A stretch of 64,000 nucleotides of DNA from Oligoflexia bacterium (lineage in GTDB: Bacteria; Bdellovibrionota_G; JANQFH01). Location of the stretch: positions 62,001-126,000 of the forward strand of contig JANQFH010000049.1 in NCBI GenBank assembly GCA_028277945.1, given 5' to 3'. Shown one piece after another: positions 6,708-25,025 of this stretch; the first letter of the stretch is position 1; each line of letters starts with the position of its first letter. The notes under the pieces were generated by a model. The model was not told where the DNA came from, made no database searches, and was given only the letters and a program-made list of their open reading frames with translations. The position numbers and the translations under genes were made by a program.

Positions 6708-7949
6708 TTGTTTTTAAAAGCATACATAATCTTTGCCATTCTATTTGGAAGCTTTGCCCTCTTTTATATTACCGATCATAATCTTGGTAAAGCCCCGTGG
6801 TACATCGTAACCATTCGCGATTTTATTTGGCTAGTTTTCTGCGTACTCGCACTCTTTCGCTATTTCTTGTTAAAGAAAGCCCACCCCACCTATTTAGCGC
6901 AGTTCAAACCTTATTACACGTTTCTATTAAGGTGGTTTCCAGTTTTCGCCGGGCCATTTTTGATTGTCGTCATTGCCCATATCTACCACCGTGGCCTTAT
7001 GGAGGTGGCGCAGCATGATCTCAGAAACACATTTTACTACAGTCTTGTGTTCTTTATTCTCCCTCTTTTTGTTAGCAGTCGTGAGGACCTACTACGCCTG
7101 CAGCAATTTTTGCTGAAAACCTGTTTCCTAACCTTTGCTGTCTGTCTCTTCTATGTTTTCAAGCCGGCACTCTTGGTTGTTGGACGAGTCAGTGCAAGTT
7201 TTGTTAGTCCTAATAACTATGCTTTCTTTCTAAATCTGATGATATGTCTTAGCTTTGCTTTGGTTCTAAATAATCTTGCGAAGAAGATGCACTACTGGAT
7301 TCTAATACTTTCCTGTGTGGTGCTTTTGCTGACAATTTCCTTCGGTAATTTTATTATGTTCTTTGGTATTCTGTTGTCGCTTCTGCTGCTTAAACGGCGC
7401 CTATTCTTATCGTTCAGCATGATCATTTTTGCAGTCCTGTTAGGATATGTCGCCATTGAATGGTTACAGCTACAACCACTCATCAAAAAGATTGAAATAG
7501 TGACAACCGGGGGTTATACGGTCTCACACAGGGTCGTTCAATATGAAATGATGTGGTCTTACCTGCTCTCTGCAGATCCTCTTTCGCTACTATTTGGTGA
7601 CCTTAGCACTACAAGGTTTAGCAAGTGGGATAGCACTTACTTTAATGTATTACGTAACAACGGACTGCTCTGCCTCGCTATCTTTCTATGCTACTACGCA
7701 TTTTTTATCATCCACTCCTTTCGGCTTCGTCGTATCGCCTTTCAGAATGGTGATCGGGAATTAGGCGCGCTTTTCGAGGGGTATGCCGTCTTTTTGCTTA
7801 TGGCCGTTGCCATTCCTTTTCAGATATACTCCATAACCTATCGGTACCCGCTGAACTTTCTGCTGTTCCTTATTAACACTTTGATTCTCATGTCTTTGAA
7901 GGTGCCCTCTTTTGCCCCTTCGCCAACAGACCAGCCGTTAACGAAATAG
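6708..7949 (+). CDS. O-antigen polymerase/ligase-like (Wzy) integral membrane protein
   Basis: Multi-TM 413 aa protein (TTG start) directly after wzz-like gene. Confidence 0.6.
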   Translation: MFLKAYIIFAILFGSFALFYITDHNLGKAPWYIVTIRDFIWLVFCVLALFRYFLLKKAHPTYLAQFKPYYTFLLRWFPVFAGPFLIVVIAHIYHRGLMEVAQHDLRNTFYYSLVFFILPLFVSSREDLLRLQQFLLKTCFLTFAVCLFYVFKPALLVVGRVSASFVSPNNYAFFLNLMICLSFALVLNNLAKKMHYWILILSCVVLLLTISFGNFIMFFGILLSLLLLKRRLFLSFSMIIFAVLLGYVAIEWLQLQPLIKKIEIVTTGGYTVSHRVVQYEMMWSYLLSADPLSLLFGDLSTTRFSKWDSTYFNVLRNNGLLCLAIFLCYYAFFIIHSFRLRRIAFQNGDRELGALFEGYAVFLLMAVAIPFQIYSITYRYPLNFLLFLINTLILMSLKVPSFAPSPTDQPLTK

Positions 7950-9362
7950 GATCTTTTCTAGCTTTTTTTCCCAGTATGCTATGTCATTTAGACAGATATT
8001 CTTATTGAACCTCCCTAACACATCAACCGACCGCCGAAAGAACTTTCCGTTCTTCCAGTCAGCCGCTCGGAATCCCGTTTTGCTCATCGCTTGTAATTTT
8101 ATCCAAGCTTTGAATCGTTCAGGCAATGGTATAGAGTTTGTGTCCGTGGTTACCTTTCGATCGTGCAAGTACCTTGACATCTTGTCCGCCAAGCGTTTCG
8201 TAGATTTTCCGTCCCTGTAGCCGCACCACTCTAAAATATAAGCATCTTGGTGTTCTTTCATTTCAGAAGTAGCACCGTTAGAGAGAGCATCTACGATGCC
8301 TTTGCTAAGTTCCTCTGCATTGGTAACAAAGTAACTACAATATCTATGCTCCTCGTTTCTCATGTAGTTGGAATTTTCTAACATTTGGATTTCGAGAGTC
8401 GGTTTGGCCATCAACCATGCTTCAATACACGTTGTGCAGGATCTACCACCTACTAGATCAGCACAGTTGATGATATCCCAAATCATTATCTGATCGGTAT
8501 ATCCAATTTTTACGTGCGGATTTGTCATCAAGGATTGAATCTGTATTACTCTGTATTTCTCCCATTTTTGGTCAGCATTTGGATGAGGCTTGATTAGAAC
8601 ATTACAAGGTGGGAAATTTTCTATAGCTTTTTCTAGGGCGTCAAAAAAGCGATTTCTGCATCTCCAGTCTAACATGGGGAAATCCTTGGCGCCCTTATAC
8701 ATCTTGTCAAATTTATAAAGCTGAATCTCCTTTTCAAACAGACCTTCGACGTCAGGATCATGGTATCGTGCTATGGAAAAATTGGTTGGAAAGAACACCA
8801 AGGGTTTTGTGGCATCCCAATGAAAATGTTGACAGAGTTCTGACTTTTGCAGAAGCGCCTCAGAAAGAGGGGGGAAATAGAAATCGAAGCGCGGTGGACC
8901 AACGACATGGATAGCCTCCTTCGACACTTTATCAGTCGCAAGAGCGGCACTTTTAACTGGGTCATTCCACACGTAGAACTGGCTTACACAAGTCAAGTCT
9001 CTGTCCAAGCCTAAAATATGCACAACGTCTTCCCGAAACGTAGGAATACCTTCAGTTGGTAAAATAAAGACATCGATACCCGCATTTCGAAGTTTGTGAT
9101 ATCTCTCAGCCATATTCTTAGCCAGGACATGAATGCCCAGAACTGCATCAGCTTGCTTCGCAATCGCTGTGTAGGTGTCGTGAGTTGCCCGACAGAACGT
9201 GGTATCCACACCTCTCTCTCTCAATAGAAAGGATAGGTATACAAGCCCTGGTAAATCCCTCCACTTATGATCAACTGCAATTACAAGTAGAGGCCGTTTT
9301 GATTTCCTGGATTCTGAAATTTGACTTTCCGTTTTCATCTCTGCTGAACCGGCGTTAATCAA
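7938..9362 (-). CDS. Surface carbohydrate biosynthesis protein (GT-B/CDP-glycerophosphotransferase-like)
   Basis: PLVFFPTNFSIARY, NVLIKPHPNAD, ADLVGGRSCTTCIEAWLMAKPTL motifs. Confidence 0.6.
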   Translation of the reverse strand: MINAGSAEMKTESQISESRKSKRPLLVIAVDHKWRDLPGLVYLSFLLRERGVDTTFCRATHDTYTAIAKQADAVLGIHVLAKNMAERYHKLRNAGIDVFILPTEGIPTFREDVVHILGLDRDLTCVSQFYVWNDPVKSAALATDKVSKEAIHVVGPPRFDFYFPPLSEALLQKSELCQHFHWDATKPLVFFPTNFSIARYHDPDVEGLFEKEIQLYKFDKMYKGAKDFPMLDWRCRNRFFDALEKAIENFPPCNVLIKPHPNADQKWEKYRVIQIQSLMTNPHVKIGYTDQIMIWDIINCADLVGGRSCTTCIEAWLMAKPTLEIQMLENSNYMRNEEHRYCSYFVTNAEELSKGIVDALSNGATSEMKEHQDAYILEWCGYRDGKSTKRLADKMSRYLHDRKVTTDTNSIPLPERFKAWIKLQAMSKTGFRAADWKNGKFFRRSVDVLGRFNKNICLNDIAYWEKKLEKILFR

Positions 9363-9613: not shown

Positions 9614-10456
9614 ATGAAGGTATTTGTTATTGCTGAAATTGGAATAAACCACAACGGAGACTTGGGTCTTGCCAAACAGTTGATCGACGTTGCTGCCATA
9701 GCGGGTGCGAACGCAGTTAAGTTTCAGAAGAGGACCTTGGATCTTGTTTATACAAAAGAAGAGCTCGACAAACCCCGTGAAAGCCCTTGGGGCACCACCA
9801 ATCGTGAGCAAAAACAGGGTCTTGAATTCGAAAAACAAGAGTACGATCAGATCGATTCCTACTGTAAGGAAAAGGGAATTGAATGGTTTGCTTCGGCATG
9901 GGATATCAAGAGTCAAGAATTTTTAAAACAATATGATCTCAAATACAATAAGATAGCTTCTCCCAGACTAACCCATTCTGGTCTTCTCAACATGATCGCC
10001 GATGAAGGTAAGTATACATTCATTTCCACCGGAATGGCTACCATTGCCGAAATCGAATCGGCTGTGGAAATCTTTCGAAAGAAAGATTGTCCCTTTGAGC
10101 TCATGCACTGTACGAGCACATATCCTGGTACAACTTCCGAGTTGAATCTACGATGCATTCCAGCCTTGAGAGAAAAATTCAGATGTAAAGTAGGCTATAG
10201 TGGGCATGAAGTCGGGCTTGTGACTACGTGGGCGGCCGTGGCTCTTGGTGCTACCTCCGTTGAAAGACATATCACCCTGAATCGGGCTATGTATGGATCT
10301 GATCAACCGGCATCCGTTGAACCACAAGGGTTCATGCGTTTGGTTCGGGACATTCGCACATTGGAAGGAGCCATGGGCGATGGTGAAAAGCGAGTCTGGG
10401 ACAGTGAAGTTCCAATTGCAAAGAAATTAAAGCGAACGGAAGACATTTTGGCCTAA
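9614..10456 (+). CDS. NeuB-family ulosonic/sialic acid synthase lacking the C-terminal SAF domain
   Basis: FVIAEIGINHNGDLGLAKQLIDVAAIAGANAVKFQKR; STGMATIAEIESAV; LMHCTSTYPG; GYSGHEVG; VERHITL; ends at 280 aa. Confidence 0.9.
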   Translation: MKVFVIAEIGINHNGDLGLAKQLIDVAAIAGANAVKFQKRTLDLVYTKEELDKPRESPWGTTNREQKQGLEFEKQEYDQIDSYCKEKGIEWFASAWDIKSQEFLKQYDLKYNKIASPRLTHSGLLNMIADEGKYTFISTGMATIAEIESAVEIFRKKDCPFELMHCTSTYPGTTSELNLRCIPALREKFRCKVGYSGHEVGLVTTWAAVALGATSVERHITLNRAMYGSDQPASVEPQGFMRLVRDIRTLEGAMGDGEKRVWDSEVPIAKKLKRTEDILA

Positions 10457-10462
10457 GTTTGC

Positions 10463-11638
10463 ATGACGGATGAGCTAAAATCACAAAATGAATTTCTCAA
10501 GAGATATCCAGCCTTAGAAGTAATTGGCAGCGATTTAGTTGCAGCGTTCGAGTTATTGAAGAACTCTATACACGCCGGTGGTAAGATTCTAACCTGCGGG
10601 AATGGGGGTAGCGCTGCCGATGCCGAACATATTGTTGGTGAACTCGTAAAAAGCTTTTTATATAACCGTCCGATCAATGAGCTAGATCATATTAAACTCA
10701 AGAAATGCTTCCTAGAGGAAGCCGACAGCATCTCCAAGAACCTAGAGGGAGCGATCCCAGCAATCTGTTTGATGTCGCCGGTCTCGTTGAACTCCGCCTT
10801 TGCCAACGACATGAGTTTTGACTTTGCACTCGCTCAGCAAGTTTATGCTCTCGGAAAGCCTAACGACGTTTTGATTGCGATATCAACATCTGGAAATTCG
10901 AAGAACGTATTGAACGCCTGTAAAGTTGCTAAAATCAAGGGAGTGAAGATTTTGGCTCTGACAGGCCAACATGGGGGAAAATTAAAGGCCTTGAGCGATA
11001 TATGTATTTGCGTACCCTCCACTAAAGTCCATGAAATACAGGAATACCATCTGCCAGTTTATCACTGGCTATGTTACACGCTGGAGGAACACTTTTTTGG
11101 AAAGTACGGCTTAAAAGAAAACACTACACCCGTAACTGATATCTTGAATGACCGAAACACCAAAAAAATAGACAAAGAAAATATCGATCTTATTGTCATG
11201 GATTTTGATGGTGTGTTTACCGACAATCTTGTTTTCACACTTCAAGATGGTGGCGAAGCTGTAGTCTGTAGCAGAGCGGACGGCTTAGGCATGGATATGC
11301 TTCGAGAGTCCGAAATCCCGTTAATGATACTCTCAACAGAGTCGAATCCTGTTATTGAAGCGCGGGCTAAAAAGCTGAAGGTGCCTTGCCATTTCGACTG
11401 TAAAGATAAGAAGAGTTTTTTAGAAAGGTATCTTACAGATCATGGGTTGGATCCAAACAAAGTAATCTATATTGGAAATGATGTAAATGATCTTGATTCT
11501 ATGAAGTTCGTGGGGACAAGCGTTTGTCCCCAAGATTCCCATCCGATAGTCTTGCGCAATGCAGACTATATTCTTCAACACTCAGGTGGTCGAGGAGCAG
11601 TGAGGGAGTTTGCTGAAATGATTTGCTCTGATGGCTAG
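10463..11638 (+). CDS. Fusion protein: SIS (GmhA-like) isomerase + KdsC-like HAD phosphatase
   Basis: N-half ILTCGNGGSAADAEHIVGELV and ISTSGNSKNVLNA (SIS); C-half IVMDFDGVFTDN, YIGNDVNDLDSM, GGRGAVREFAE (KdsC-like). Confidence 0.9.
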   Translation: MTDELKSQNEFLKRYPALEVIGSDLVAAFELLKNSIHAGGKILTCGNGGSAADAEHIVGELVKSFLYNRPINELDHIKLKKCFLEEADSISKNLEGAIPAICLMSPVSLNSAFANDMSFDFALAQQVYALGKPNDVLIAISTSGNSKNVLNACKVAKIKGVKILALTGQHGGKLKALSDICICVPSTKVHEIQEYHLPVYHWLCYTLEEHFFGKYGLKENTTPVTDILNDRNTKKIDKENIDLIVMDFDGVFTDNLVFTLQDGGEAVVCSRADGLGMDMLRESEIPLMILSTESNPVIEARAKKLKVPCHFDCKDKKSFLERYLTDHGLDPNKVIYIGNDVNDLDSMKFVGTSVCPQDSHPIVLRNADYILQHSGGRGAVREFAEMICSDG

Positions 11639-12326
11639 TTTACCTAGAATCTTGTGTATTATACCTGCTCGAGGAGGAAGTAGAGGTATCCCGCATAAGA
11701 ATCGCGTCTCTTTTGCAGGCAAGCCTCTCATCGCCTGGAGTATTGACCAAGCCAAACACGCTACCCTGGTCTCCGACACAGTCGTATCCTCTGACGACCA
11801 GCAGATTCTTCAAATAGCAAAAGATTTTGGTGCAGAGACCGTATTACGACCGCATGAGCTATCGCTTGGTACCGCCCCGTCAGAAGCGGCCTTGATACAC
11901 GCGTTGGATTATATGGAACAACAGAAGTCAGCTTCGTATGATCTGATTGTTTTTCTTCAGGCTACGTCCCCGATTCGACAAAGAGACGATATCGATAATG
12001 CCATCTCTAAACTAATCGCTGAAAATGCTGACAGCCTTTTATCAGTAAGGGTTCTTAATGATTATTTCATTTGGGAGGACGGGCAAGAAGGCGTTCGAAG
12101 CGTCAACTATGACTATAAACATAGGAAGATGCGACAGGATATCAGCACTACCTATTTGGAAAATGGGTCGATATATGTGTTTCGTCCGGAAATTCTGCGA
12201 AGGCACCGTAATCGACTTGGAGGCAAAATTGTTGTTTATGAAATGGATCGACTTTCCTCGCAGCAAATTGACAATCAAGATGATCTGGAACTATGTGAAC
12301 TCATCGCAAAGAAGGTTTTGATGTGA
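11631..12326 (+). CDS. CMP-sialic/ulosonic acid cytidylyltransferase (NeuA family)
   Basis: LCIIPARGGSRGIPHKNRVSFAGKPLIAWSI; FLQATSPIRQRDDID. Confidence 0.93.
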   Translation: MASLPRILCIIPARGGSRGIPHKNRVSFAGKPLIAWSIDQAKHATLVSDTVVSSDDQQILQIAKDFGAETVLRPHELSLGTAPSEAALIHALDYMEQQKSASYDLIVFLQATSPIRQRDDIDNAISKLIAENADSLLSVRVLNDYFIWEDGQEGVRSVNYDYKHRKMRQDISTTYLENGSIYVFRPEILRRHRNRLGGKIVVYEMDRLSSQQIDNQDDLELCELIAKKVLM

Positions 12327-13105
12327 AGAAGACAGTTGTAGTCACAGGTGCGACGGGTTTTTTTGGTAGATATTTGGTTCAGGCCTTAGAAAATGACTAC
12401 CACGTCTGTGCCGTCTCAAGAAACCATGACAAGCTGAAGAGTATATTCCCAGCAGAATCGGTGTCTAAGATAGTAGTAGATCTATATGATTCCGAATCCA
12501 TCATTCGAGAGTGCAAGAACATTGGAAAACACTTTGACGTCCACGGCCTAATCAACAATGCCTATGACTTCTCGGAAAAAACTGGTTTTAATACTCAAAA
12601 GGGTACTTTGGAGAATATTTCAGTAGAGATGATTCAAGCAGCATTGCAATCGGGTGTGACCGCACCATTATTGTTTGCTCAATCGATTGGCAATCAGATG
12701 ATTGAGAAAAGCATAAAGGGTAGCATTATTAATGTCTCCTCAATGTACAGCATAGTATCGCCAGATCGGCGGCTATATCAGGGAAAAACCACCTTGAATC
12801 CCGTAACCTATGGGATCGCCAAGAGCGGTTTGAATGCAATGAGCAGGTATATGGCCTCTTTTTGGGGCAAACATGGTATTCGCGTTAACTCGATCGCCCC
12901 TGGTGCATACCCAAACATGGAAATGGAGAGTGCAAACGCTACCTCAGATAGAGAATTCATCTGTCGCCTCGAACATAAAACCGCCTTAGCTCGGGTCGGA
13001 CACCCGAATGATCTTACGGGCATCACAAGGTTTCTTCTTTCAGACAGCTCCAGTTATATAACAGGCCAGACCATCTGCATAGATGGTGGATGGACAATCA
13101 TCTAG
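12323..13105 (+). CDS. SDR family oxidoreductase
   Basis: VTGATGFFGRYL; NVSSMYS; YGIAK catalytic motif; ITGQTICIDGGWTII end. Confidence 0.92.
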   Translation: MKKTVVVTGATGFFGRYLVQALENDYHVCAVSRNHDKLKSIFPAESVSKIVVDLYDSESIIRECKNIGKHFDVHGLINNAYDFSEKTGFNTQKGTLENISVEMIQAALQSGVTAPLLFAQSIGNQMIEKSIKGSIINVSSMYSIVSPDRRLYQGKTTLNPVTYGIAKSGLNAMSRYMASFWGKHGIRVNSIAPGAYPNMEMESANATSDREFICRLEHKTALARVGHPNDLTGITRFLLSDSSSYITGQTICIDGGWTII

Positions 13106-13949
13106 GGACTCACTGATCGCCTTCCAAATCGGCATAATGCAGGGAAGACTATCTCCTAGACACCAAGGACAATATCAAGCCTTCCCTTTACATCATTGGA
13201 AAAAAGAGTTTCAGCTCGCCAAGTCGATTGGTTTTGCAGCTATCGAGTTCATCTTTGACTATAGATCGGCCAAACAGAATCCACTGATGACCGATGGAGG
13301 CATCAAGTCAATTTTAGAACTGATTGAAGAAACTGGAGTGAAGGTAAAATCCATCTGCGCCGATTACTTTATGGAGAGGCCTTTTCATTCTGAGCATTTT
13401 GAGACTTCACTGCTGGTCCTGAAGGAGCTAATTGATAGATCTAGCCAATTAGGGGTTAAGGACATTGTCATACCTTGTGTAGATCAGGCACGAATCATCA
13501 CCAAAGAGGACCAGTGTAGAGTTCTCAGTGCAATTCGAACGGCTGATTCTTTTGCGTCTGAGCGTGGTATTTACCTCAACCTGGAGACCGATTTGCCGCC
13601 GGAAAGAGTAGGTGAACTACTCACCGATGCTGCTTTAGATTGCTTGCGGATAAACTATGATATCGGTAACTCAGCATCTTTGGGCTACGATCCTTCACAG
13701 GAGTTTGCCAATTATGGTGAGTGGATTTCCGACGTTCATGTCAAAGACCGAGTCCTGGGAGGGTTCTCGGTCAAACTTGGAATAGGGAACGCCAAGTTTG
13801 ATCTGGTTTTTTCCCTTCTAAAACAGTATAACTTTAAGGGCAATTTGGTGATGCAAGCAGCTCGGGCCGAGGAATACTCAGACGAGTTGTCCCTAGTGCG
13901 AGAACAACTTGCCTTACTTCAAAGTTTGATGAAGAGGTATCTGGTATAA
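13083..13949 (+). CDS. Sugar phosphate isomerase/epimerase (xylose-isomerase-like TIM barrel)
   Basis: IGIMQGRLSP, FAAIEFIFD, INYDIGNSASLG, DVHVKDR. True start probably downstream of 13083 since it overlaps the previous SDR. Confidence 0.85.
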   Translation: MVDGQSSRDSLIAFQIGIMQGRLSPRHQGQYQAFPLHHWKKEFQLAKSIGFAAIEFIFDYRSAKQNPLMTDGGIKSILELIEETGVKVKSICADYFMERPFHSEHFETSLLVLKELIDRSSQLGVKDIVIPCVDQARIITKEDQCRVLSAIRTADSFASERGIYLNLETDLPPERVGELLTDAALDCLRINYDIGNSASLGYDPSQEFANYGEWISDVHVKDRVLGGFSVKLGIGNAKFDLVFSLLKQYNFKGNLVMQAARAEEYSDELSLVREQLALLQSLMKRYLV

Positions 13950-13952
13950 GCG

Positions 13953-14702
13953 ATGAAAACAAGAACTGCTTTTGTCTCCGGATCAAGTAGAGGCATCGGT
14001 AAGGCTATTGCAGAAAAGCTTTCACAAATGGACTTTGCTGTTTATCTCAATGGTCGAAATGAGAGCGATCTCGAGAATGCCGTGGCCGATATCAATGCTA
14101 AAGGCGGACACGCCTATGCCATAGCAGGAGACTTAACAGATGATAAAGCCATCCGGGAGGCACTTGAGCAAGTACTCAAGAAAAAGGATAAGATCGATGT
14201 TGTGGTAGCCAATTTGGGAAGTGGGCGATCGGTTCCTGGTTGGGCGATCTCTATCGCGGAATATCGCAGAGTGTTTGATCTAAACTTTTTTTCAGCAGTT
14301 TCCTTGATGACACAAGCCATTCCTCATATGGCTAAAAATTCGAATCTGGTTGTTATTTCTTCGATTGCTGGCTGTGAGTCGATTGGAGCACCAATTGCTT
14401 ACCTCAGTGCCAAAGCGGCTCTGCTTGCCTTTACAAAAGGACTTTCAGATCAAGTTGTCGACCTTGGTATTCGAGTCAATGCCATTAGTCCCGGAAATAT
14501 CTACTTTCCTGGTGGTACTTGGGATGAGAAAATGCACAAGGATGAAAATGCTGTTCGAAAACTGCTTGACGACAAAGTGCCTCTTAAGCGTCTTGGTCGA
14601 CCCAGCGAGATCGCCGATGCTGTAGAATTTCTCCTGTCAAACGAGTTTGTTGTTGGACATAACCTGGTAATCGATGGCGGCCAGATAAGAAAGATCATTT
14701 GA
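13953..14702 (+). CDS. SDR family oxidoreductase
   Basis: SGSSRGIGKAIA; YLSAK; NAISPGNI; LVIDGGQ. Confidence 0.93.
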   Translation: MKTRTAFVSGSSRGIGKAIAEKLSQMDFAVYLNGRNESDLENAVADINAKGGHAYAIAGDLTDDKAIREALEQVLKKKDKIDVVVANLGSGRSVPGWAISIAEYRRVFDLNFFSAVSLMTQAIPHMAKNSNLVVISSIAGCESIGAPIAYLSAKAALLAFTKGLSDQVVDLGIRVNAISPGNIYFPGGTWDEKMHKDENAVRKLLDDKVPLKRLGRPSEIADAVEFLLSNEFVVGHNLVIDGGQIRKII

Positions 14703-14723
14703 TCTTCAAGAAATGTACTCTCG

Positions 14724-15557
14724 ATGAATGTAGCTGATAAATTTCGCTTGGATGGCAGGCTCGGCGTTCTCACTGGAGGAGGCGGTCTACTCGGCACACA
14801 GTACACAGCCGCCCTTCTTCAGGCAGGAGCAAAGCTTGCCGTGTTAGATGTCTCGACAAGTTGTCTAAATAAGTTAGAGGAGCTCATTGGCCACAATGCT
14901 CAGGGGAGCCTTCTACCACTCGAGTGTGATATTCGAGATGAACCTAAGATCATGAAAGCTAGAGACAAAATATTTGAATCTTTCGGAAAGTACCCAGACT
15001 TCTTGATCAATAATGCTGCAATAGATCCAAAATTTGATGAATCTTGCAGCCAAAATCATCCTAGTCGACTGGAAAAGTTACCGATCGAACAGTGGAATCT
15101 GGAAATTGCAGTAGGTTTAACGGGTGCATGGTTGTGTAGCCGTGTTTTCGGTGTTCCTATGGCAGAAGCAAACTACGGTGTGATTATTAATATTGCCTCA
15201 GACCTAGCATTTATCTCTCCTGACCAAAGGATCTATCAAAAATCCGGGCTGATGCAAAACGCGCAAATGGTCAAGCCGGTAACCTACTCTGTAATTAAAC
15301 ACGGTATTGTAGGGTTAACGAAATATATCGCAACTTACTGGGCAAAGGATGGGGTTCGCTGTAACGCCTTCGCTCCAGGAGGCGTATACAATAGCCATTC
15401 AGATGAGTTTGTAGAAAGAATAACTCAGAGAATTCCCATGGGCCGCATGGCCGCGCTCGAAGAGTATCGGGCAACAATCGTCTACTTATGCAGTGATGCA
15501 TCCTCCTATATGAATGGCGCGGTTTTAAAGATGGATGGGGGTCGTACCGTCTGGTAG
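14724..15557 (+). CDS. SDR family oxidoreductase
   Basis: LTGGGGLLGTQYTAAL; NNAA; YSVIK; NGAVLKMDGGRTVW. Confidence 0.92.
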   Translation: MNVADKFRLDGRLGVLTGGGGLLGTQYTAALLQAGAKLAVLDVSTSCLNKLEELIGHNAQGSLLPLECDIRDEPKIMKARDKIFESFGKYPDFLINNAAIDPKFDESCSQNHPSRLEKLPIEQWNLEIAVGLTGAWLCSRVFGVPMAEANYGVIINIASDLAFISPDQRIYQKSGLMQNAQMVKPVTYSVIKHGIVGLTKYIATYWAKDGVRCNAFAPGGVYNSHSDEFVERITQRIPMGRMAALEEYRATIVYLCSDASSYMNGAVLKMDGGRTVW

Positions 15558-16419: not shown

Positions 16420-17517
16420 CTATAACCCAGCTACTAGCTGCCAAGATTGACCCTGTTTTTTCCAGATCTCAGCGCTACGAAAGCTTTCGGCTATCTCAAA
16501 AAAACGCCTCTCTTTAATGCCAACGTAGTCACAAAAAGCACGGATGTCCTCCTTGGGTGTCTGTTCGCCACTCTGTTTGACGATCTCTACAGCTTGATCT
16601 CTTGACATGCGGCCATTTCTGATCTCTAGGGAAAGGTTGTCAAATAGCCGCGTAAAGCCAAATTTATACCACTTCAAATAGTGGTGAATGGAGATAAAAT
16701 CATCATCAATATCAGCATAGTCATAGTAGCCAGTGCGAGGGCCTTTAGACTCTGCTTGAAAGCCATGAGCTTTGGCAACTGCAAAAGTCTCCGCTGGATC
16801 CCATGCAAAATAATAGCCAAGAAAGATCGACAAAACGTTGGCTGCACGCAACTCTTCATCACTAGGAGTAAAGTATGGTGTCAGCTCTTTGATCGTTAAC
16901 TGCTCTGAGACCCAGTCCGATGCCGTTGTGCCTTGCGTGACGCCAAACTGCTTAAGCCAAGCCTCATTCATCTGGAAACCTTGAGTGGCCTGGTCCTTGC
17001 TGCCATACTCAAAGGCCGAATTCTCTCCCCAGATTACTAAAGGTATACGGTAGTTTACCGCCACTTGTAGTGGAATGCTAAAAAGCGCCATATGCATCGG
17101 AATCATGGGTGTGCCGTATCGAACAAACGACTCTAACAGAAACTTTTTTTCCACCTTTGGATTGATCTGAAAATCGATATGGTCCACACCTAGGCCAATA
17201 AGATTCTTTAGGTTAGCTTCTCCTACTGGTGTGCGAACGGGTGACCTCCATGTCACCGCCAAAGGATGCAAACCGTGTTGCAAACAGTGCACCACCTGCC
17301 AGGTGCTATCCTTGCCGCCACTTACGGGAATAACACAATCATATCCGTGGGTTAAACTCTTGGCGCGCTCAACGACTTTGCTAAAGGCACGCGCCCGTTC
17401 CTGCCAATCGATGACCGCCTTGGTCGCATGACTCTTACATGCGTTGCAGACACCATCTTTGCCAATCACCAAGTTTGGTCGAGTGTCTGGAAGGATGCAC
17501 TTTTGACAGAACCTCAT
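16420..17517 (-). CDS. N-acetyl sugar amidotransferase (PseA/WbpG/LegG-like)
   Basis: CQKCILPDTRPNLVIGKDGVCNACKSH; PP-loop VIPVSGGKDSTWQV. Confidence 0.9.
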   Translation of the reverse strand: MRFCQKCILPDTRPNLVIGKDGVCNACKSHATKAVIDWQERARAFSKVVERAKSLTHGYDCVIPVSGGKDSTWQVVHCLQHGLHPLAVTWRSPVRTPVGEANLKNLIGLGVDHIDFQINPKVEKKFLLESFVRYGTPMIPMHMALFSIPLQVAVNYRIPLVIWGENSAFEYGSKDQATQGFQMNEAWLKQFGVTQGTTASDWVSEQLTIKELTPYFTPSDEELRAANVLSIFLGYYFAWDPAETFAVAKAHGFQAESKGPRTGYYDYADIDDDFISIHHYLKWYKFGFTRLFDNLSLEIRNGRMSRDQAVEIVKQSGEQTPKEDIRAFCDYVGIKERRFFEIAESFRSAEIWKKQGQSWQLVAGL

Positions 17518-19343
17518 GCAGCAAACTCCTCAAGAAACAGCTTACTACTTACAAAATAAAAGAGAAATTTGCTCTCGCTGTTCGCAAGCTCACTTTTTTT
17601 AAGTAAGCATTCAATCTTTTCTCTCTTTACCAAATCGTAGATCCTTCCAGACGCCAGCAGGTAATCCTTGGTATTGGCATCATGAATGTCCAGCAATGAA
17701 AAAATCGGTGCGTTGAATCCAACCTTGCGGTGATTGTTCAGTATGGTTTCTGGAACGATACCACGCATGGCATCTCGTAGCACCGCCTTAGCCAATCCAT
17801 GCTTGATTAAATGGCGTGAGGGAATTTGATAACAAAATTCAAAAAGATCTCGATCGAGAAAGGGAGAGCGATTCTCGATGGAGTAAAACATAGCGTTCAG
17901 GTCATCCTCGTGAAGGATTACAGGAACTGCCTCATGAAACATCTCGTTCATCATCCTATTGCGCAGTAAGCTGTCAGTATAATTTGTTTCCTCAAAGTCT
18001 TCGTACCAATCGTCATAGAAACACTCAGCAAACTGCTTGGCATTAAGAAAAATGTGCTGTCGAAATGATGGATCCTCGATAAAAAGCTCGGCATTACTGA
18101 GATGGGGGTTTCGCACAAACGGCTTTACCCGTTCTGTCCAGTTGGCCTGCGCCTCTTGGAGTAGGCCAGTGTCATGGCGAATCTCGTGAAAGTAGGCTAA
18201 ATGATGATCGTAATAGCCTGTAAGCAGCTCATCCGCTGCCGTACCGCTTATGGAAATACGGTAGCCGTGTTCAGCAATGGCGGACATGAGCATCCAGTGG
18301 GCGTAGTAAGAAATGGTGTAAATCGGCGCATCATGTTGGCGAATCAACAGACGTAGTTGATGCAAAAAGTCGCGTTTCTCCAGAGGAACTTGGGTATGGC
18401 GAATGCCCAGGCTACCTACAGCGTGTTCGACCATCTCCCTCTCTTGATAACGCCCATCTGTATTCATGATGGTAAAACCATGCACATCATAGTCAAAGAC
18501 GTTTTTGGCAATACTAATCAGACTATTGGAATCAACACCCCCACTCATACAGAAGGCCAAGGGCACGTCAGCCCGCAAGCGAAGTTTGACTGAATTTATC
18601 AGTCGTTGGCGAACGCCCTCCACGGCTTCTTGGTAGCGCATACTGTCTCGTGGGGCATAAACAGGCTTCCAGTATGGCCTCTGACTTTCCTTACCATCAG
18701 CAGTGACCTCCATAATATGGGCGCTTGGCAGCTCAGAGACACCCTTAAAAAAGCTACCACCCTGTTTGTAGAGCGACTTGTAGCCGTTGATCATGTAGCG
18801 GCACAGCATCTGTTGATCTATCTCAAACTCCTTGCCCACAAGCGTGCTCAGAAACTTGATTTCAGAGGCAAAGTAGAGACCACTCTTGTCCCGATAAAGA
18901 TAGCAAGGTTTCTCACCAAAACGGTCTCGGCTCAACAGCAACGAACCATTACGCTCATCATAGACAGCAAAGGCCCACATACCCTCACACATCTCTAATA
19001 TGCTGGGTCCATAGCTTAGAGCATGTAGCAACACCTCGGTATCCGAGGCCGTGCGGAATTCATGGCCTTTTTGCTGAAGATACTCTTTGACCTCAAGATA
19101 GTTGTACAGCTCACCGTTGAGGATGAGCGATTGAGATCCATAAACAAATGGCTGGTTGGAACGCTCATCTGGATCTATGATATTTAGGCGAGAGTGCAAA
19201 AGGTATATTCTCTTACCTGCGCTATTTTCCCATTGTCTCAGGTCAGCATGATCTGGACCCCGTCGGCCCATCTTGACTAAACACTCCTGTAGAACCGCAG
19301 GATCTAGGTTTCTTGTACCAAAGTATCCGGCAATACCACACAT
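17514..19343 (-). CDS. asnB: Asparagine synthase (glutamine-hydrolysing)
   Basis: MCGIAGYFG with catalytic Cys2; RGPDHAD; FCMSGGVDSNSL synthetase PP-loop; FEFCYQIPSRHLI. Confidence 0.93.
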   Translation of the reverse strand: MCGIAGYFGTRNLDPAVLQECLVKMGRRGPDHADLRQWENSAGKRIYLLHSRLNIIDPDERSNQPFVYGSQSLILNGELYNYLEVKEYLQQKGHEFRTASDTEVLLHALSYGPSILEMCEGMWAFAVYDERNGSLLLSRDRFGEKPCYLYRDKSGLYFASEIKFLSTLVGKEFEIDQQMLCRYMINGYKSLYKQGGSFFKGVSELPSAHIMEVTADGKESQRPYWKPVYAPRDSMRYQEAVEGVRQRLINSVKLRLRADVPLAFCMSGGVDSNSLISIAKNVFDYDVHGFTIMNTDGRYQEREMVEHAVGSLGIRHTQVPLEKRDFLHQLRLLIRQHDAPIYTISYYAHWMLMSAIAEHGYRISISGTAADELLTGYYDHHLAYFHEIRHDTGLLQEAQANWTERVKPFVRNPHLSNAELFIEDPSFRQHIFLNAKQFAECFYDDWYEDFEETNYTDSLLRNRMMNEMFHEAVPVILHEDDLNAMFYSIENRSPFLDRDLFEFCYQIPSRHLIKHGLAKAVLRDAMRGIVPETILNNHRKVGFNAPIFSLLDIHDANTKDYLLASGRIYDLVKREKIECLLKKSELANSESKFLFYFVSSKLFLEEFAA

Positions 19344-19346
19344 GGT

Positions 19347-20363
19347 TCACAAAGGATCGACAACTTCGGGGGTTATGGCTTCACCCTCAGAGACATCACT
19401 CTTTAGATGTCGACCAATGAGCGTGGTTTCATCATCAAAGAGTTTTTCTTGGGGTGACCGTACCCAGATGAGATCGCTCTTGGTCAAAGTCGCTCCCGCT
19501 GGTAGGTTCCTACTGGCTATGGGAGATCTCCTGGTCTGCTGACGGATGCTCTGCTCACTTGCAGCAACGCCGACTTCGCCCGTACCCAGAAGCGTGTTGG
19601 CATGGCGAATCCGCTCGACCATAAGCCGCAATTCATTAGGCTCTGCCGATAGCTGATGGTCACGAAAGTCAGAATACTCCTTATCGAGAGTAAAGTGCTT
19701 TTCGATCACTCGTGCGCCTGCGGCAACTGCCAATACAGCCGCTTCTATGCCCAGCGTGTGATCCGAATAGCCGACAGGTGTACGGAATCTCTCATAAAGG
19801 GTGCCAATGGCTGCGAGGTTTGCCTCTTCTGCTGGCGTTGGATAGGCGCTCACACAGTGCAACAGCACCAGGCCAGGAGAGACACCTGCACCCTGCCAAC
19901 GTTCTTCAATAAAATTTTTTGTCGACTGAATTTCGTCAAGCGTAGCCATGCCGGTAGAGAGAATGATAGGCTTATGAAACGAACTCACAGTGTCAATCAG
20001 TGGATAAAAGGTATTATCACTGGATGCAATTTTAAACACATCACAGATGGTGTTGAGAAAATTTGCCGACTCGAGATCCAACGGTGTCGACAAAAAATGT
20101 ATCTTTTCTGCATCAGCAAGATGTTTCAACTTTACAAATTCAGCATGAGTCAGCTGAAACCGTTTCAGCTTTTCAAATCGCTCCTTATCTGTTTTGCTAA
20201 CATAACGCTCTGTCAAGAACGTCTGGAATTTAACAACGTCGACGCCAGCCTCGGCAGCACGTTCAATCAGTTCGGCGGCAACATCAAACCGACCTTCGTG
20301 ATTGTTGCCAATCTCAGCAATGACGACAACATCTTTAGTTAAATCTTTACCAAATAACTTCAT
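19347..20363 (-). CDS. NeuB-family N-acetylneuraminate/legionaminate-type synthase with SAF domain
   Basis: MKLFGKDLTKDVVVIAEIGNNHEGRFDVA (internal start preferred over 20450); LLHCVSAYPTP; GYSDHTLG; IEKHFTL; SAF-like RNLPAGATLTKSDLIWVR. Confidence 0.92.
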   Translation of the reverse strand: MKLFGKDLTKDVVVIAEIGNNHEGRFDVAAELIERAAEAGVDVVKFQTFLTERYVSKTDKERFEKLKRFQLTHAEFVKLKHLADAEKIHFLSTPLDLESANFLNTICDVFKIASSDNTFYPLIDTVSSFHKPIILSTGMATLDEIQSTKNFIEERWQGAGVSPGLVLLHCVSAYPTPAEEANLAAIGTLYERFRTPVGYSDHTLGIEAAVLAVAAGARVIEKHFTLDKEYSDFRDHQLSAEPNELRLMVERIRHANTLLGTGEVGVAASEQSIRQQTRRSPIASRNLPAGATLTKSDLIWVRSPQEKLFDDETTLIGRHLKSDVSEGEAITPEVVDPL

Positions 20364-21100
20364 GGTGTCAGATGTAGGTGAAGGATATAATGCGACGCCT
20401 GTAGTCGAAAACCCAGCTTTTCGTACAGACCGATAGAGGCGATATTGCACACCTGTGTGCCCGCCTGGATATGTGCAAATTCCTTATGCATACTCTCTGC
20501 GGCCTGAATCATCATCGAGCCAACACCCTTTTTGTAGTGGTTTGGCGCTACCGCAATAAGATCAATAACCAAGATGCCCTTTCCAGCATCTAAAAGCAAT
20601 AGGAAGCCAGCTGGCGCACCGTTATCCACGGCCACCAACATATCATCACCTCTATTACCACGAAAGTAGTTGCGCACCCATGTTGCTTTGATGTGATCTG
20701 CCACGCTGTCTTCAATGCTTGGATCCAGATGGAACCTAGAAGAAGAAAAGCTCGCTGCAGCAATTGTCGCCACAGCTTCTTCATCCTCTGGCTTTACCCG
20801 GCGTACCCTTGGTGGTGCAGCATCTGCGGCCTGGCTGATGGCCTTGGTAAACACCAATTGCGTGTCGATAAGACGAAATCCTGTTGCCTGCAGGCTCTTT
20901 GTCGTAGTGACATCACTGGTAGGCACCTTGGTAAAAAGAAAGACCCGTTCCAATTCAAACAGGCCAGCAAGGTCCTGCTCCGACATGGAGGGAAACCTAT
21001 GCAAGAACCTCTTGGCTGCAACCGAGAAGCACTTCATCTGCATGGTCTCGCTCAACCAGGGATCAGCAGTAAAAACTTCCGGGTCATAGGGTTGCTGCAT
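20360..21100 (-). CDS. GNAT-family N-acetyltransferase
   Basis: IAVAPNHYKKGVGSMMIQAAES; ASIGLYEKLGFR. Confidence 0.88.
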   Translation of the reverse strand: MQQPYDPEVFTADPWLSETMQMKCFSVAAKRFLHRFPSMSEQDLAGLFELERVFLFTKVPTSDVTTTKSLQATGFRLIDTQLVFTKAISQAADAAPPRVRRVKPEDEEAVATIAAASFSSSRFHLDPSIEDSVADHIKATWVRNYFRGNRGDDMLVAVDNGAPAGFLLLLDAGKGILVIDLIAVAPNHYKKGVGSMMIQAAESMHKEFAHIQAGTQVCNIASIGLYEKLGFRLQASHYILHLHLTP

Positions 21101-22145
21101 AGTGACCCTGAATACTAGGTAAATCTTGGCTGTGACTCTTATACCAGTTGAGGTACTTTACACAGCCTTCTTCCAAAGGGTATTTTGGACTGTATCCAAG
21201 CAAACTCTTGGCTTTGTCTACAGACAAGGTGCCTCGCTTTGGGGTTAACTTGTCACGAGCTTTAAACTTGACTTTGATATCCGGAAAGTTCGCAGAGACA
21301 ATGTCTGCCAACTGTTTGATAGTACGGGAACCACCAAAGGTTAGATTGAATGTTTCATTAATGGCGTTGTCATTACTCACAACCTTGACTATGCCTTGAA
21401 CCAGATCATCAATGTAGGTAAAGTCCAGAGCATCCGAGCCATCCCCATTGACGACGATCTCATCTCCCCTAATGGCATTTTCAACAAAGATTTGGGCGAC
21501 ACGACGGCTGACACATCTTTCACCGTAAAGTGCCGACGGTCGAATGATAGTGTAAGGAAGATCAAACGTCTGGTTGTAGGCAATCACCAGCTTTTCACCG
21601 CTAAATTTTAAGGCCCCATAAATGCCGAGGGGATTACATACGGTTTCCTCAGTCACTGTGTCTGAACCAAATGTGCCGTAGACCATGCTGGAAGAAAAAT
21701 AGACAAATTGATCGATCTGTTGTCCACGACTAAAATCAAGAACATTCTCAAGTGTCCGTAGGCTATGATCAAATGTGTGGTAGGGATCCTTATTCGACTT
21801 TCCAGCGTGGGCAATGGCTGCTAGATGAATGACAACGCTCGGATCAATAGCCTCGAGCAGATGGGCCACACGATGGTAGTCACGGGCATCTTGTACATGC
21901 AGAGGAATGCTTGCGTCTCTTAATAGCCGCAGGCGTTCATTGAGAAAGTGGCAGTATAAGGCGTTGTAAGGTTGGTTGGTCGACATGGAGGTAAACTCCA
22001 GTAGGTTGTTAACCTCCAGACCATCAATGATTTCGACATGAGCCCCTTGCTTTGCCAACGCCAAGGCCAGGTGATGGCCAATAAAGCCCGCACCACCAAT
22101 CAGAGCAATTTTGCGATCTTTTAGCGATCTAGATGCCATGGTCAC
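21084..22145 (-). CDS. NAD-dependent epimerase/dehydratase (extended SDR)
   Basis: IALIGGAGFIGHHLALAL; YFSSSMVYG; YGALKFSGE; YGERC. Confidence 0.92.
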   Translation of the reverse strand: MTMASRSLKDRKIALIGGAGFIGHHLALALAKQGAHVEIIDGLEVNNLLEFTSMSTNQPYNALYCHFLNERLRLLRDASIPLHVQDARDYHRVAHLLEAIDPSVVIHLAAIAHAGKSNKDPYHTFDHSLRTLENVLDFSRGQQIDQFVYFSSSMVYGTFGSDTVTEETVCNPLGIYGALKFSGEKLVIAYNQTFDLPYTIIRPSALYGERCVSRRVAQIFVENAIRGDEIVVNGDGSDALDFTYIDDLVQGIVKVVSNDNAINETFNLTFGGSRTIKQLADIVSANFPDIKVKFKARDKLTPKRGTLSVDKAKSLLGYSPKYPLEEGCVKYLNWYKSHSQDLPSIQGHYAATL

Positions 22146-23311
22146 TCCTTATCACTTCTGACGACGTCAATCGCCTGTCTAAACGTAGTTACTATCCACT
22201 CAATGTCATCGTCCTGCAAGTGTGGGCCCACCGGCAAGGCTATCGAGCCGTCGCTTATGGATTCTGCCACCGGATACATCCCTCTGACATAACCGTATTT
22301 TTCGCGGTAATAGGAGAGGCGAGGGACTGGATGTGGATAGTGCACGGTTGTGCCAACGCCGCGGGTTTTAAGATAGGAGACAATTTCGTACCGCTTTTTA
22401 CGCAATGTCTCGTCAAGCACAACCTGAAAACAGTAGTTACTGCTGACATGATCCTCATTGGGTGGTGCGAAGTATGAAATGCCCTCGATGCCATCTAGCT
22501 CTTCACGCAACATGCGAGCATGTCGTTCACGACTCTTCAGAAAATCACTGAGACGTTTTATCTGCTCAATACCAATGGCAGATTGAATCTCATTAAGTCG
22601 ATAGTTAAAACCCAGCATGTTGACATCATAAACACCAGGTACAGCACGTTCTGTCGGTGTACGGTCTACACCAAACGCCTTCTGTCGTTTAATCCGTTCT
22701 TTAACCTGTGGGTGCTTGGTAAGCAACATACCCCCCTCTGCAGTCGTCATGTGTTTTACTGGATAAAAGGAAAAACAGCCTGTATCACCGTGTAGTCCAA
22801 CGTGGACTCCTTTAAAATAGCTGCCAACCGCGAGAGCACAGTCTTCAACCACAAAGAGATCGTGGTTCTTGGCAATGGCACCAAGCCGTTCCATGTCGAC
22901 CGGGATACCAAGAAAGTGAACAAGCGAAATTGCCCGAGTCTTATCGGTTATCTTGTCTTCGATCTGGGTCAGGTCGATATTGCCTGTCTGCGGCTCAGCG
23001 TCGACAAAAACAGGCGTGGCGCCAGTGAGTTCGACGGCATGTACGGTTGCCGTGTGAGTTTGAGCAGGCACAATGACTTCGTCTCCCGGACCTATGCCTA
23101 GATAGAAGTAGGACAAATGTAGTGCCGCTGTACATGATGAAAGTGACACCGCGTGCGATGCACCCGTCCATTTGGCGAAAGCCTCTTCAAACTCAGTCGC
23201 CTTAGGACCATGCACTAGTATAGGGCCTGCTAAGACTTCGAGCACTGCCTGGACTTCTGCATCGCCCAACATGGGACGCCCAAAAGGAATCTGTCTCGTA
23301 GATTCTGTCAT
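22142..23311 (-). CDS. DegT/DnrJ/EryC1/StrS-family sugar aminotransferase
   Basis: IPFGRPMLGDAEVQAVLEVLAGPILVHGPKATEFEEAFAKWTGA (internal start); CFSFYPVKHMTTAEGGML PLP-Lys region; GFNYRLNEIQSAIG. Confidence 0.93.
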   Translation of the reverse strand: MTESTRQIPFGRPMLGDAEVQAVLEVLAGPILVHGPKATEFEEAFAKWTGASHAVSLSSCTAALHLSYFYLGIGPGDEVIVPAQTHTATVHAVELTGATPVFVDAEPQTGNIDLTQIEDKITDKTRAISLVHFLGIPVDMERLGAIAKNHDLFVVEDCALAVGSYFKGVHVGLHGDTGCFSFYPVKHMTTAEGGMLLTKHPQVKERIKRQKAFGVDRTPTERAVPGVYDVNMLGFNYRLNEIQSAIGIEQIKRLSDFLKSRERHARMLREELDGIEGISYFAPPNEDHVSSNYCFQVVLDETLRKKRYEIVSYLKTRGVGTTVHYPHPVPRLSYYREKYGYVRGMYPVAESISDGSIALPVGPHLQDDDIEWIVTTFRQAIDVVRSDKE

Positions 23312-24321
23312 GAACAACCTCCGAAATACTGCACTGGAACAAAGCCTTGACACTGAACAGCTTTCTCGATCGCAAAACAAATAGCCATAACATCGAAAAT
23401 ATCTCTTGCACTGACCTCTGTTTTTCCGTCTTTGACAATAGCCTCAACAAAATCGTACAACAGATCGCCCTTAGCTGGCTTTTTATCAAATCCTGAAAGC
23501 ATCTCAGTAGCGACATGGGGATCTCGGCTCTTATAGAGTTTCAGTGCCTCAGGTTCGTTGACAACCGTCGCCTCGGTGCCGTAAAAGGTGCAACGATGAA
23601 AGTGAGGGTAAACACAGCCAAAGTTAACCGCCATCTTGCCTACCATACCGCTTTGAAATCTCATTAGACATACCACGAGATCATTGAACTTGAATTGCGA
23701 CTCCCTTGACGCAATCCTATTGCCACAGGCAGCAACCTCAACAACGCGATCATTCGTTAGCCAGGTAAACAGATCGACGATGTGCACACCGCCACCGTAG
23801 ACAACCGAATAGAAATCAAGTTTGCCGCGCCAACCATCAGTAATCTTTTCCAGACGGCCATAGTTGTAATCGCCTTCAATAAGGAAGAGCTCCCCAAGTG
23901 AGCCAGCACGTATCATCTCTCGTAAACGAATGAATTTGGGATAGTGCCGCAGAATTAGGTTGGACGATAGTTTCAGACGAGAGTGACGTTGGTGCAACTC
24001 GGCAATGTGTTTGGCATGATCTTCTCGTTGACAAAGGGGTTTTTCAACAAAAACATGTTTGCCTTGCTGCATTGCCTTGACCACCTGTTCGTAGTGATCG
24101 TCGTCATAGGATGCAATGGCCACTGCATCGATGTTTGGATCTTCAAGAAGCGTTTTGGCTGACTCGTAAATCGCCATCTGTGGATACTGGCTCTTTGCCT
24201 GTTGCCGCTTTTGCGGCAGTCGATCACAAAGTGCTACAACTTCACACTGTGGATGGGACTGAAACCCACGAATATGCGCCTCACCCACTCCAAGACCAAT
24301 GATACCAGCGCGCAAACTCAT
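23308..24321 (-). CDS. Gfo/Idh/MocA-family oxidoreductase
   Basis: AGIIGLGVGEAHIRGF; VFVEKPLCQ; GGGVHIVDLFTWL. Confidence 0.92.
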   Translation of the reverse strand: MSLRAGIIGLGVGEAHIRGFQSHPQCEVVALCDRLPQKRQQAKSQYPQMAIYESAKTLLEDPNIDAVAIASYDDDHYEQVVKAMQQGKHVFVEKPLCQREDHAKHIAELHQRHSRLKLSSNLILRHYPKFIRLREMIRAGSLGELFLIEGDYNYGRLEKITDGWRGKLDFYSVVYGGGVHIVDLFTWLTNDRVVEVAACGNRIASRESQFKFNDLVVCLMRFQSGMVGKMAVNFGCVYPHFHRCTFYGTEATVVNEPEALKLYKSRDPHVATEMLSGFDKKPAKGDLLYDFVEAIVKDGKTEVSARDIFDVMAICFAIEKAVQCQGFVPVQYFGGCS

Positions 24322-25025
24322 AAAAAGGCCCTCGGATTTTGCGATAGACGTCGACGCAGGGTCGCAAACTCCAACCAGGAATCTTCGAGCTGACGCTCCA
24401 TATGCTGTTGCATGATGGTCTCGATGGCGACAAGATCCGCCGGTGTGTCTACTGCCAGGCTAATATCTGCATAGCTCGGATCGGGCGATTCAAAGCAGCA
24501 GAGTTTGAAGGCCGTGGCGTGCTGGTAAAAGTAACGTGTCACGTGTTCCTGATCTCTGACGTCCTGCATATTGCCAACATGCTCCAAAAAGCAAGAAGAT
24601 CTAATCATTTCAACACTTTGACCTCTAGGAAAGGTCCGTGGTCTAACATTTGTAATAAGGTCATAGTCCTGTTGGCGATAGAGTGCAATAGCGCGATCAA
24701 CCAGCTCCACGTCCAAGAGCGGACTGTCGCCAGAGAGACGCACAAAGGCTTCGGCTGGATAGGTCTTGAGACAACTGGCAAAGCGCTCAGCTACATGACC
24801 AAGAGGACCACGATGGCAGAGAATACTGTTAGTCGCACAGAACTGCACAATGGGTATGTCACTGTCATCTGCGGAAGTCGCAACGACTATGTCACAACCG
24901 TGGTGGTTACGGCTAATTCGCTCTAGCAAATGCGCAAGTAAAGGCTTACCACATAAGGGTGCCAAGACTTTCCCAGGAAACCTCGTCGAGTTCATACGTG
25001 CCTGAATAATAATGAGGTAGTTCAT
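24318..25025 (-). CDS. SpsF/cytidylyltransferase-family glycan protein
   Basis: IIIQARMNSTRFPGKVLAPLCGKPLLAHLLERI; VRLSGDSPLLD. Confidence 0.9.
   Translation of the reverse strand: MNYLIIIQARMNSTRFPGKVLAPLCGKPLLAHLLERISRNHHGCDIVVATSADDSDIPIVQFCATNSILCHRGPLGHVAERFASCLKTYPAEAFVRLSGDSPLLDVELVDRAIALYRQQDYDLITNVRPRTFPRGQSVEMIRSSCFLEHVGNMQDVRDQEHVTRYFYQHATAFKLCCFESPDPSYADISLAVDTPADLVAIETIMQQHMERQLEDSWLEFATLRRRLSQNPRAFL

Follow-up and report, generated by a model that had tools for sequence, protein, structure and literature searches.

What does a bacterium make with a sialic-type synthase gene that is followed by a heptose-type isomerase joined to a phosphatase? The question is raised by seven tightly packed co-directional genes at 9614-15557 in the ORF list of the window, by which we mean the whole 64,000-nucleotide stretch of DNA that was analysed. 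The source bacterium belongs to a poorly sampled phylum. In the leading reading, these genes would form a single operon that turns a phosphorylated aldose into a CMP-activated 3-deoxy-2-ulosonic acid. The genes, the parts of the fusion and one flanking gene are as follows.

7938-9362, minus strand: BFO_1060-family / TIGR04396 surface carbohydrate protein (NF046086, TIGR04396)
9614-10456, plus strand: NeuB-type synthase without SAF domain, 280 aa (PF03102, 242 bits)
10463-11638, plus strand: SIS-KdsC fusion, 391 aa, single ORF
10463-11119, plus strand: SIS domain of GmhA type (profile matches, catalytic residues, AF2 model)
11120-11173, plus strand: linker between the fusion halves, without a stop; one TTG, neither ATG nor GTG
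11174-11638, plus strand: KdsC/YrbI-type HAD phosphatase domain (PRK09484, TIGR01670 and KDN-9-PPhBT matches)
11631-12326, plus strand: CMP-ulosonate cytidylyltransferase (CMPT), NeuA-like (PF02348, 83.9 bits)
12323-13105, plus strand: SDR1, predicted tailoring oxidoreductase (PF13561, 111 bits)
13083-13949, plus strand: predicted TIM-barrel sugar(-phosphate) epimerase, UlaE-like (PF01261)
13953-14702, plus strand: SDR2, part of a TIM-SDR2-SDR3 submodule (PF13561, 162.7 bits)
14724-15557, plus strand: SDR3, co-occurring with the TIM barrel (PF13561, 127 bits)

The ORFs and domains bear out the order given in the first-pass annotation, namely a NeuB without SAF, a SIS-KdsC fusion and a CMPT, then three SDRs and a TIM barrel, and the domain matches are far above noise in profile searches. 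The genome_contigs collection was scanned with an alignment of five SAF-less NeuBs and the loci of the 80 best relatives were kept (numbered with the prefix L); a search of viral_contigs gave no matches. Because related NeuB genes in many phyla carry the same neighbour families, the locus is not a chance assembly. A separate, second surface-sugar set lies at 16420-28188 on the minus strand, with a SAF-containing NeuB (19347-20450, minus strand), two Asn-synthase proteins, a DegT aminotransferase, a Gfo/Idh dehydrogenase, a CTP-transferase, an aldo-keto reductase and an NAD-epimerase.

The isomerase-phosphatase fusion

SIS_2/GmhA matches span residues ~20-214 of the fusion. The TIGR00441 score of 157.1 bits is under the gmhA equivalog cut-off (209.45), as are the scores of most GmhA-like genes of related genomes, and the KdsD model PRK10892 gives only 22 bits (cut-off 505). 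The zinc and channel residues of Burkholderia pseudomallei GmhA are D61, H64, E68, Q175 and H183 (PMC5705639), and in the alignment all five equivalents are kept in the fusion. At the loop beside the GmhA active site the SIS domain carries an insert of 26 residues (about 70-97); in Neisseria gonorrhoeae GmhA the loop preceding the insert position sits by the active site (PMC5387315). AF2 modelling of the fusion was restricted to the SIS domain because MAFFT placed the SIS C-terminus against KdsC, and gave a model with a pLDDT of 90.5 and GmhA 2x3y as top PDB match.

The KdsC/YrbI match covers residues 238-388. This half scores below the cut-offs of PRK09484 (KdsC; 104.5 bits, cut-off 208), TIGR01670 (YrbI subfamily; 99.3 bits, cut-off 106.95) and KDN-9-PPhBT (93.3 bits, cut-off 180), and its nearest solved chain is 3mmz (117 bits), titled putative HAD hydrolase. 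The linker is stop-free and its one TTG is the sole possible start codon ahead of the DFDG motif, so that 10463-11638 reads as a genuine fusion, with an assembly artefact a small remaining possibility. These results agree with the first-pass description of a GmhA-like SIS fused to a KdsC-like phosphatase, as does, for the SIS half, its predicted structure; prediction of the SIS pocket had been put forward there as a check.

Among the 80 NeuB loci, the SIS-KdsC order of fusion is found in the window only, and there is no second such fusion in the 385 genomes of one class that were searched, nor a second copy among five genomes of the window's phylum. L023, L034 and L057 have SIS and KdsC as neighbouring genes arranged as in the window, and in the latter two they overlap by 4 nt. 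Such adjacent or overlapping genes suggest how the fusion may have arisen.

The SAF-less synthase

The operon NeuB matches the full PF03102 profile but the C-terminal SAF (antifreeze-like) domain, a feature of canonical Neu5Ac/Leg/Pse synthases, is missing; it was detected in the control NeuB at 19347-20450 on the minus strand. The first-pass annotation had named this absence in proposing a likely noncanonical ulosonic acid pathway. Related NeuB ORFs are mostly 268-311 aa and SAF is missing throughout the group, so its absence is ordinary in the window's clade and does not by itself point to a product other than Neu5Ac. The synthase is also below the cut-offs of the Neu5Ac or Pse synthase equivalogs TIGR03569 (253.6 bits, cut-off 399.7) and TIGR03586 (199.7 bits, cut-off 340.3), and its nearest PDB chain is 6ncs (157.7 bits).

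A tree made by a quick method places the window in a clade of 55 NeuBs (SH-aLRT 100) with 30 others apart, many of them with KdsC as their only partner. Residue 227, three residues ahead of the conserved Asp of the GSD motif, is Y in 55/55 of the window's clade and W in 30/30 of the sister NeuBs. The stretch 63-66 shows a fixed difference as well, and from these positions we infer an altered pocket in the window's clade. Human NANS uses phosphorylated substrates; the KFQK and GYSGHE motifs of the window's group presumably occur in it too, and we take them to be absent from the solved NeuB/PseI/SpsE chains.

Related loci in other phyla

The 80 loci are spread over many phyla, and carriers include SAR11, Prochlorococcus, Lachnospiraceae, Acidobacteria, Omnitrophota, Myxococcales and a Thermoplasmatales-labelled MAG. 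KdsC is present in 45/80, a GmhA-type SIS in 36/80 and a CMPT-type ORF in 51/80; together with TIM and SDR3 they recur in shuffled order. The same enzymes are also found fused in other combinations: KdsC-SIS in 10 of the 80 loci, CMPT-KdsC in about nine and CMPT-KdsC-NeuB in one (L009 7633-9825, Nonomuraea gerenzanensis). Two of the KdsC-SIS fusions (L027 8901-9989 and L030 8898-9962) have a damaged SIS active-site motif and their isomerase half may be inactive. The presence of SIS was rejected as an indicator of the NeuB clade, since it (27/53 vs 9/27) does not follow the split.

In the SIS tree the NeuB-linked proteins are scattered among other GmhA proteins (14 label changes, of which starred branches force at least two), which suggests that GmhA-type isomerases were probably recruited to NeuB loci more than once. 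The window's SIS is in an insert-bearing clade (96%) that also includes L103, where the SIS gene has a nucleotidyltransferase-GmhB fusion on one side and an HddA-like kinase on the other, in a nucleotide-heptose cluster. Insert-bearing SIS genes are also present in alphaproteobacteria with no nearby sugar genes (L104 8254-8955 and L105 7875-8501), and their neighbours resemble panC/panB by eye.

Two roseobacter plasmids carry CMPT-KdsC fusions beside an AGE-type epimerase (L005 7260-8477 and L006 7032-8225), a vertebrate-like arrangement, and L006 also has an annotated sialyltransferase. Class IV or class III aminotransferases lie in two cassettes (L025 9319-10302 and L034 11594-12973) and hint at amino-sugar variants.

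Predicted activation, tailoring and transfer

The PDB matches of the CMPT are PpNeuA (118 bits), CMAS 1qwj (92.7 bits) and KdsB (35 bits), and by these scores it is NeuA-like rather than KdsB-like. Close homologues of SDR1 occur in just two loci, L012 (an Alteromonas) and L079. The TIM barrel matches the UlaE profile at 107.6 bits and its AF2 model (pLDDT 93.7) resembles UlaE 3cqi (TM 0.79) and YcjR 6wn6 (TM 0.68). UlaE is a ketose-phosphate 3-epimerase. The TIM barrel could act upstream, on a ketose-phosphate, or downstream, in an oxidise-epimerise-reduce set. In the window's NeuB clade 19 loci have both TIM and SDR3, 1 and 2 have one of them alone and 15 have neither (Fisher p = 2e-7, a guide only as the loci are related to one another). 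For TIM and SIS the counts are 13 with both, 8 with SIS only, 7 with TIM only and 9 with neither (p = 0.33). The data fit downstream tailoring better because the link of TIM to SDR3 is strong and that to SIS is weak.

The flanking protein at 7938-9362, a BFO_1060-family glycosyltransferase by its match, is above the cut-offs of NF046086 (207 bits, cut-off 200) and TIGR04396 (173.5 bits, cut-off 125). By association only, it is a candidate transferase for the CMP-sugar; the Azospirillum thermophilum cluster is also bordered by a 'surface carbohydrate biosynthesis protein'. In L026 (8461-10248) and L034 (16508-18265) a LIC12162-family transferase (TIGR04331) adjoins the cassette.

Proposed pathway and its alternatives

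Gene content, the fusion, the intact GmhA catalytic set and the evolutionary coupling are established. On this basis we propose the individual reactions, the substrate and the size of the acid, as follows. The SIS half would convert a ketose-phosphate to an aldose-phosphate, NeuB would condense this with PEP, the KdsC half would remove the terminal phosphate and the CMPT would activate the resulting acid with CMP. The TIM barrel with SDR2 and SDR3 would probably invert one or more stereocentres, by oxidise-epimerise-reduce chemistry or ketose-phosphate 3-epimerization. A phosphorylated four-step route of this general kind is likely, given the recurrent clustering and the independent fusions of the same enzymes; together with the complete catalytic set, these uphold the Kdo-like logic with a phosphorylated sugar that the first-pass annotation had proposed.

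The most likely substrate would be sedoheptulose-7-P, converted to D-glycero-D-manno-heptose-7-P and on to a ten-carbon acid. That the window's operon makes a ten-carbon 3-deoxy-ulosonate from heptose-7-P is our tentative preference, a little short of an even chance; that the related module in many phyla does so too, each with CMP-activated ten-carbon 3-deoxy-2-ulosonic acids as products, is possible but held more loosely. GmhA normally serves heptose synthesis. Heptose-7-phosphate is favoured over mannose-6-phosphate by the repeated recruitment of GmhA-type SIS, the context of L103, the rarity of local mannose-6-P isomerases (2/80 loci vs 36/80 with SIS) although most SIS-bearing genomes, the window's own included, have one elsewhere, and the window's own genome, a draft (95.6% complete) in which no HldE or HddA heptose kinase was found above cut-off. 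As this draft also has no other SIS_2 or KdsC, we detected no nucleotide-heptose route that would consume heptose-7-P, with the caveats that gene absence in a draft is weaker than presence and that the HddA cut-offs are strict. SIS recruitment and genome content therefore lend indirect support to the heptose-7-P idea of the first-pass annotation; the sequence does not prove the carbon number. Several points stand against ten carbons: the SIS score under the gmhA equivalog cut-off (157 vs 209 bits), the lack of a local SIS in about half of the 80 loci, the damaged isomerase motifs of L027 and L030, a CMPT nearest to sialic/Kdn-type enzymes, and the established chemistry of a phosphorylated Kdn-9-P route (PMC6200933).

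A GmhA-like gene is present elsewhere in 33/45 genomes without a local SIS, which we judged uninformative because Gram-negatives usually carry GmhA. The idea that SIS stands in for a missing mannose-6-P isomerase was dropped; ManA class I and PGI/PMI were not found in the window's own genome, but it has a standalone type II mannose-6-P isomerase domain, and about 23/31 SIS-bearing genomes have a separate isomerase elsewhere.

The main rival, which we consider somewhat unlikely, is Kdn. Here SIS would convert Fru-6-P to Man-6-P, NeuB would form Kdn-9-P, the KdsC half would release Kdn and the CMPT would make CMP-Kdn, with the SDRs and TIM barrel modifying it later. A Kdn-9-P synthase, a KdsC-type phosphatase and a CMP-Kdn synthetase are described in Bacteroides thetaiotaomicron and P. 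parvum (PMC6200933), Kdn is present in Streptomyces walls (PMC11481543) and Serratia marcescens produces Kdn with a NeuB bearing a COG1082 domain (PMC9000132). The similarity of the CMPT to PpNeuA and CMAS, that of the KdsC half to 3mmz and the triple fusion in Nonomuraea also fit this product, and the KdsC-only NeuB loci may plausibly be Kdn loci. Yet the isomerase recruited is of GmhA type and not a Man-6-P isomerase, though most SIS-bearing genomes own one, and the window's clade differs by fixed residues from the sister NeuBs, many of them KdsC-only.

It is unlikely that another aldose-phosphate is used, with the TIM barrel 3-epimerizing a ketose-phosphate (to allulose-6-P or a sedoheptulose epimer) that SIS then isomerizes towards a stereoisomer of Kdn or of the ten-carbon acid, or with a pentose-phosphate leading to a Kdo-like acid. 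The barrel is nearest to UlaE and its close homologues are rare outside these NeuB loci, which speaks for this reading, but it follows SDR3 and not SIS, a pattern more in keeping with a late tailoring role than with supplying the substrate. Very unlikely is an incidental fusion in which the SIS half belongs to some other sugar pathway, of the nucleotide-heptose or another kind, since the usual role of GmhA and the insert-bearing SIS of L103 are outweighed by the lack of HldE/HddA above cut-off in the window's genome, the confinement of HddA-like genes to two of the 80 loci (L013 and L038, both without SIS) and the repeated fusion of SIS to KdsC beside NeuB.

A further point against ten carbons is that, to our knowledge, no natural ten-carbon 3-deoxy-ulosonate is known, nor a biosynthetic pathway for one. 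If the heptose-7-P reading is true, Kdo (8 C) and the nonulosonic acids (9 C) would be joined by a further class of ulosonic acids. Sialic-type chemistry would then be connected with heptose metabolism, and mass spectrometry would have a direct target. Such a class would probably have been overlooked because genome annotation labels such synthases N-acetylneuraminate synthase, a label that would also mislead surveys predicting nonulosonic acids from NeuB phylogeny. Given the wide spread of the related loci, the product may be a common surface sugar.

Comparison with known systems

We found no published description of a SIS-KdsC-NeuB module in the open-licence literature searched. The Kdo pathway (KdsD, KdsA, KdsC, KdsB) has the same order of steps, with a SIS isomerase, PEP condensation, a KdsC phosphatase and CMP activation, but the window's synthase is of NeuB and not KdsA type, its isomerase of GmhA and not KdsD type and its transferase NeuA-like and not KdsB-like. 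The window's SIS shares the fold, zinc ligands, channel residue and phosphate-binding loop of the sedoheptulose-7-P isomerase GmhA; it differs in its insert and fused phosphatase, and in a genome without a heptose kinase above cut-off. Sets of the YcjQ/YcjR/YcjS type combine a TIM-barrel epimerase with oxidoreductases in an oxidise-epimerise-reduce pathway. YcjR lies close to the window's TIM barrel in structure, but the partners of the barrel are SDRs.

The NeuB of the S. marcescens KL1/KL2 Kdn capsules has a COG1082 sugar phosphate isomerase/epimerase domain, in the broad class of the window's PF01261 barrel; there it is fused within a 2.2-kb neuB and no phosphatase is mentioned, whereas in the window NeuB and TIM are separate genes (PMC9000132). 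The Kdn-9-P route, represented by BT1713-1715 of B. thetaiotaomicron and the Kdn-9-P synthetase of P. parvum, likewise joins NeuB-family condensation of a phosphorylated aldose with PEP to a KdsC-type phosphatase and a CMP-transferase (PMC6200933). In the part of that source used here no isomerase is described, whereas the window has a GmhA-type SIS fused to the phosphatase and TIM and SDR genes after it, and its phosphatase is far under the KDN-9-phosphatase cut-off (93 vs 180 bits). The closest established route is that through Kdn-9-P and the closest step logic is that of Kdo.
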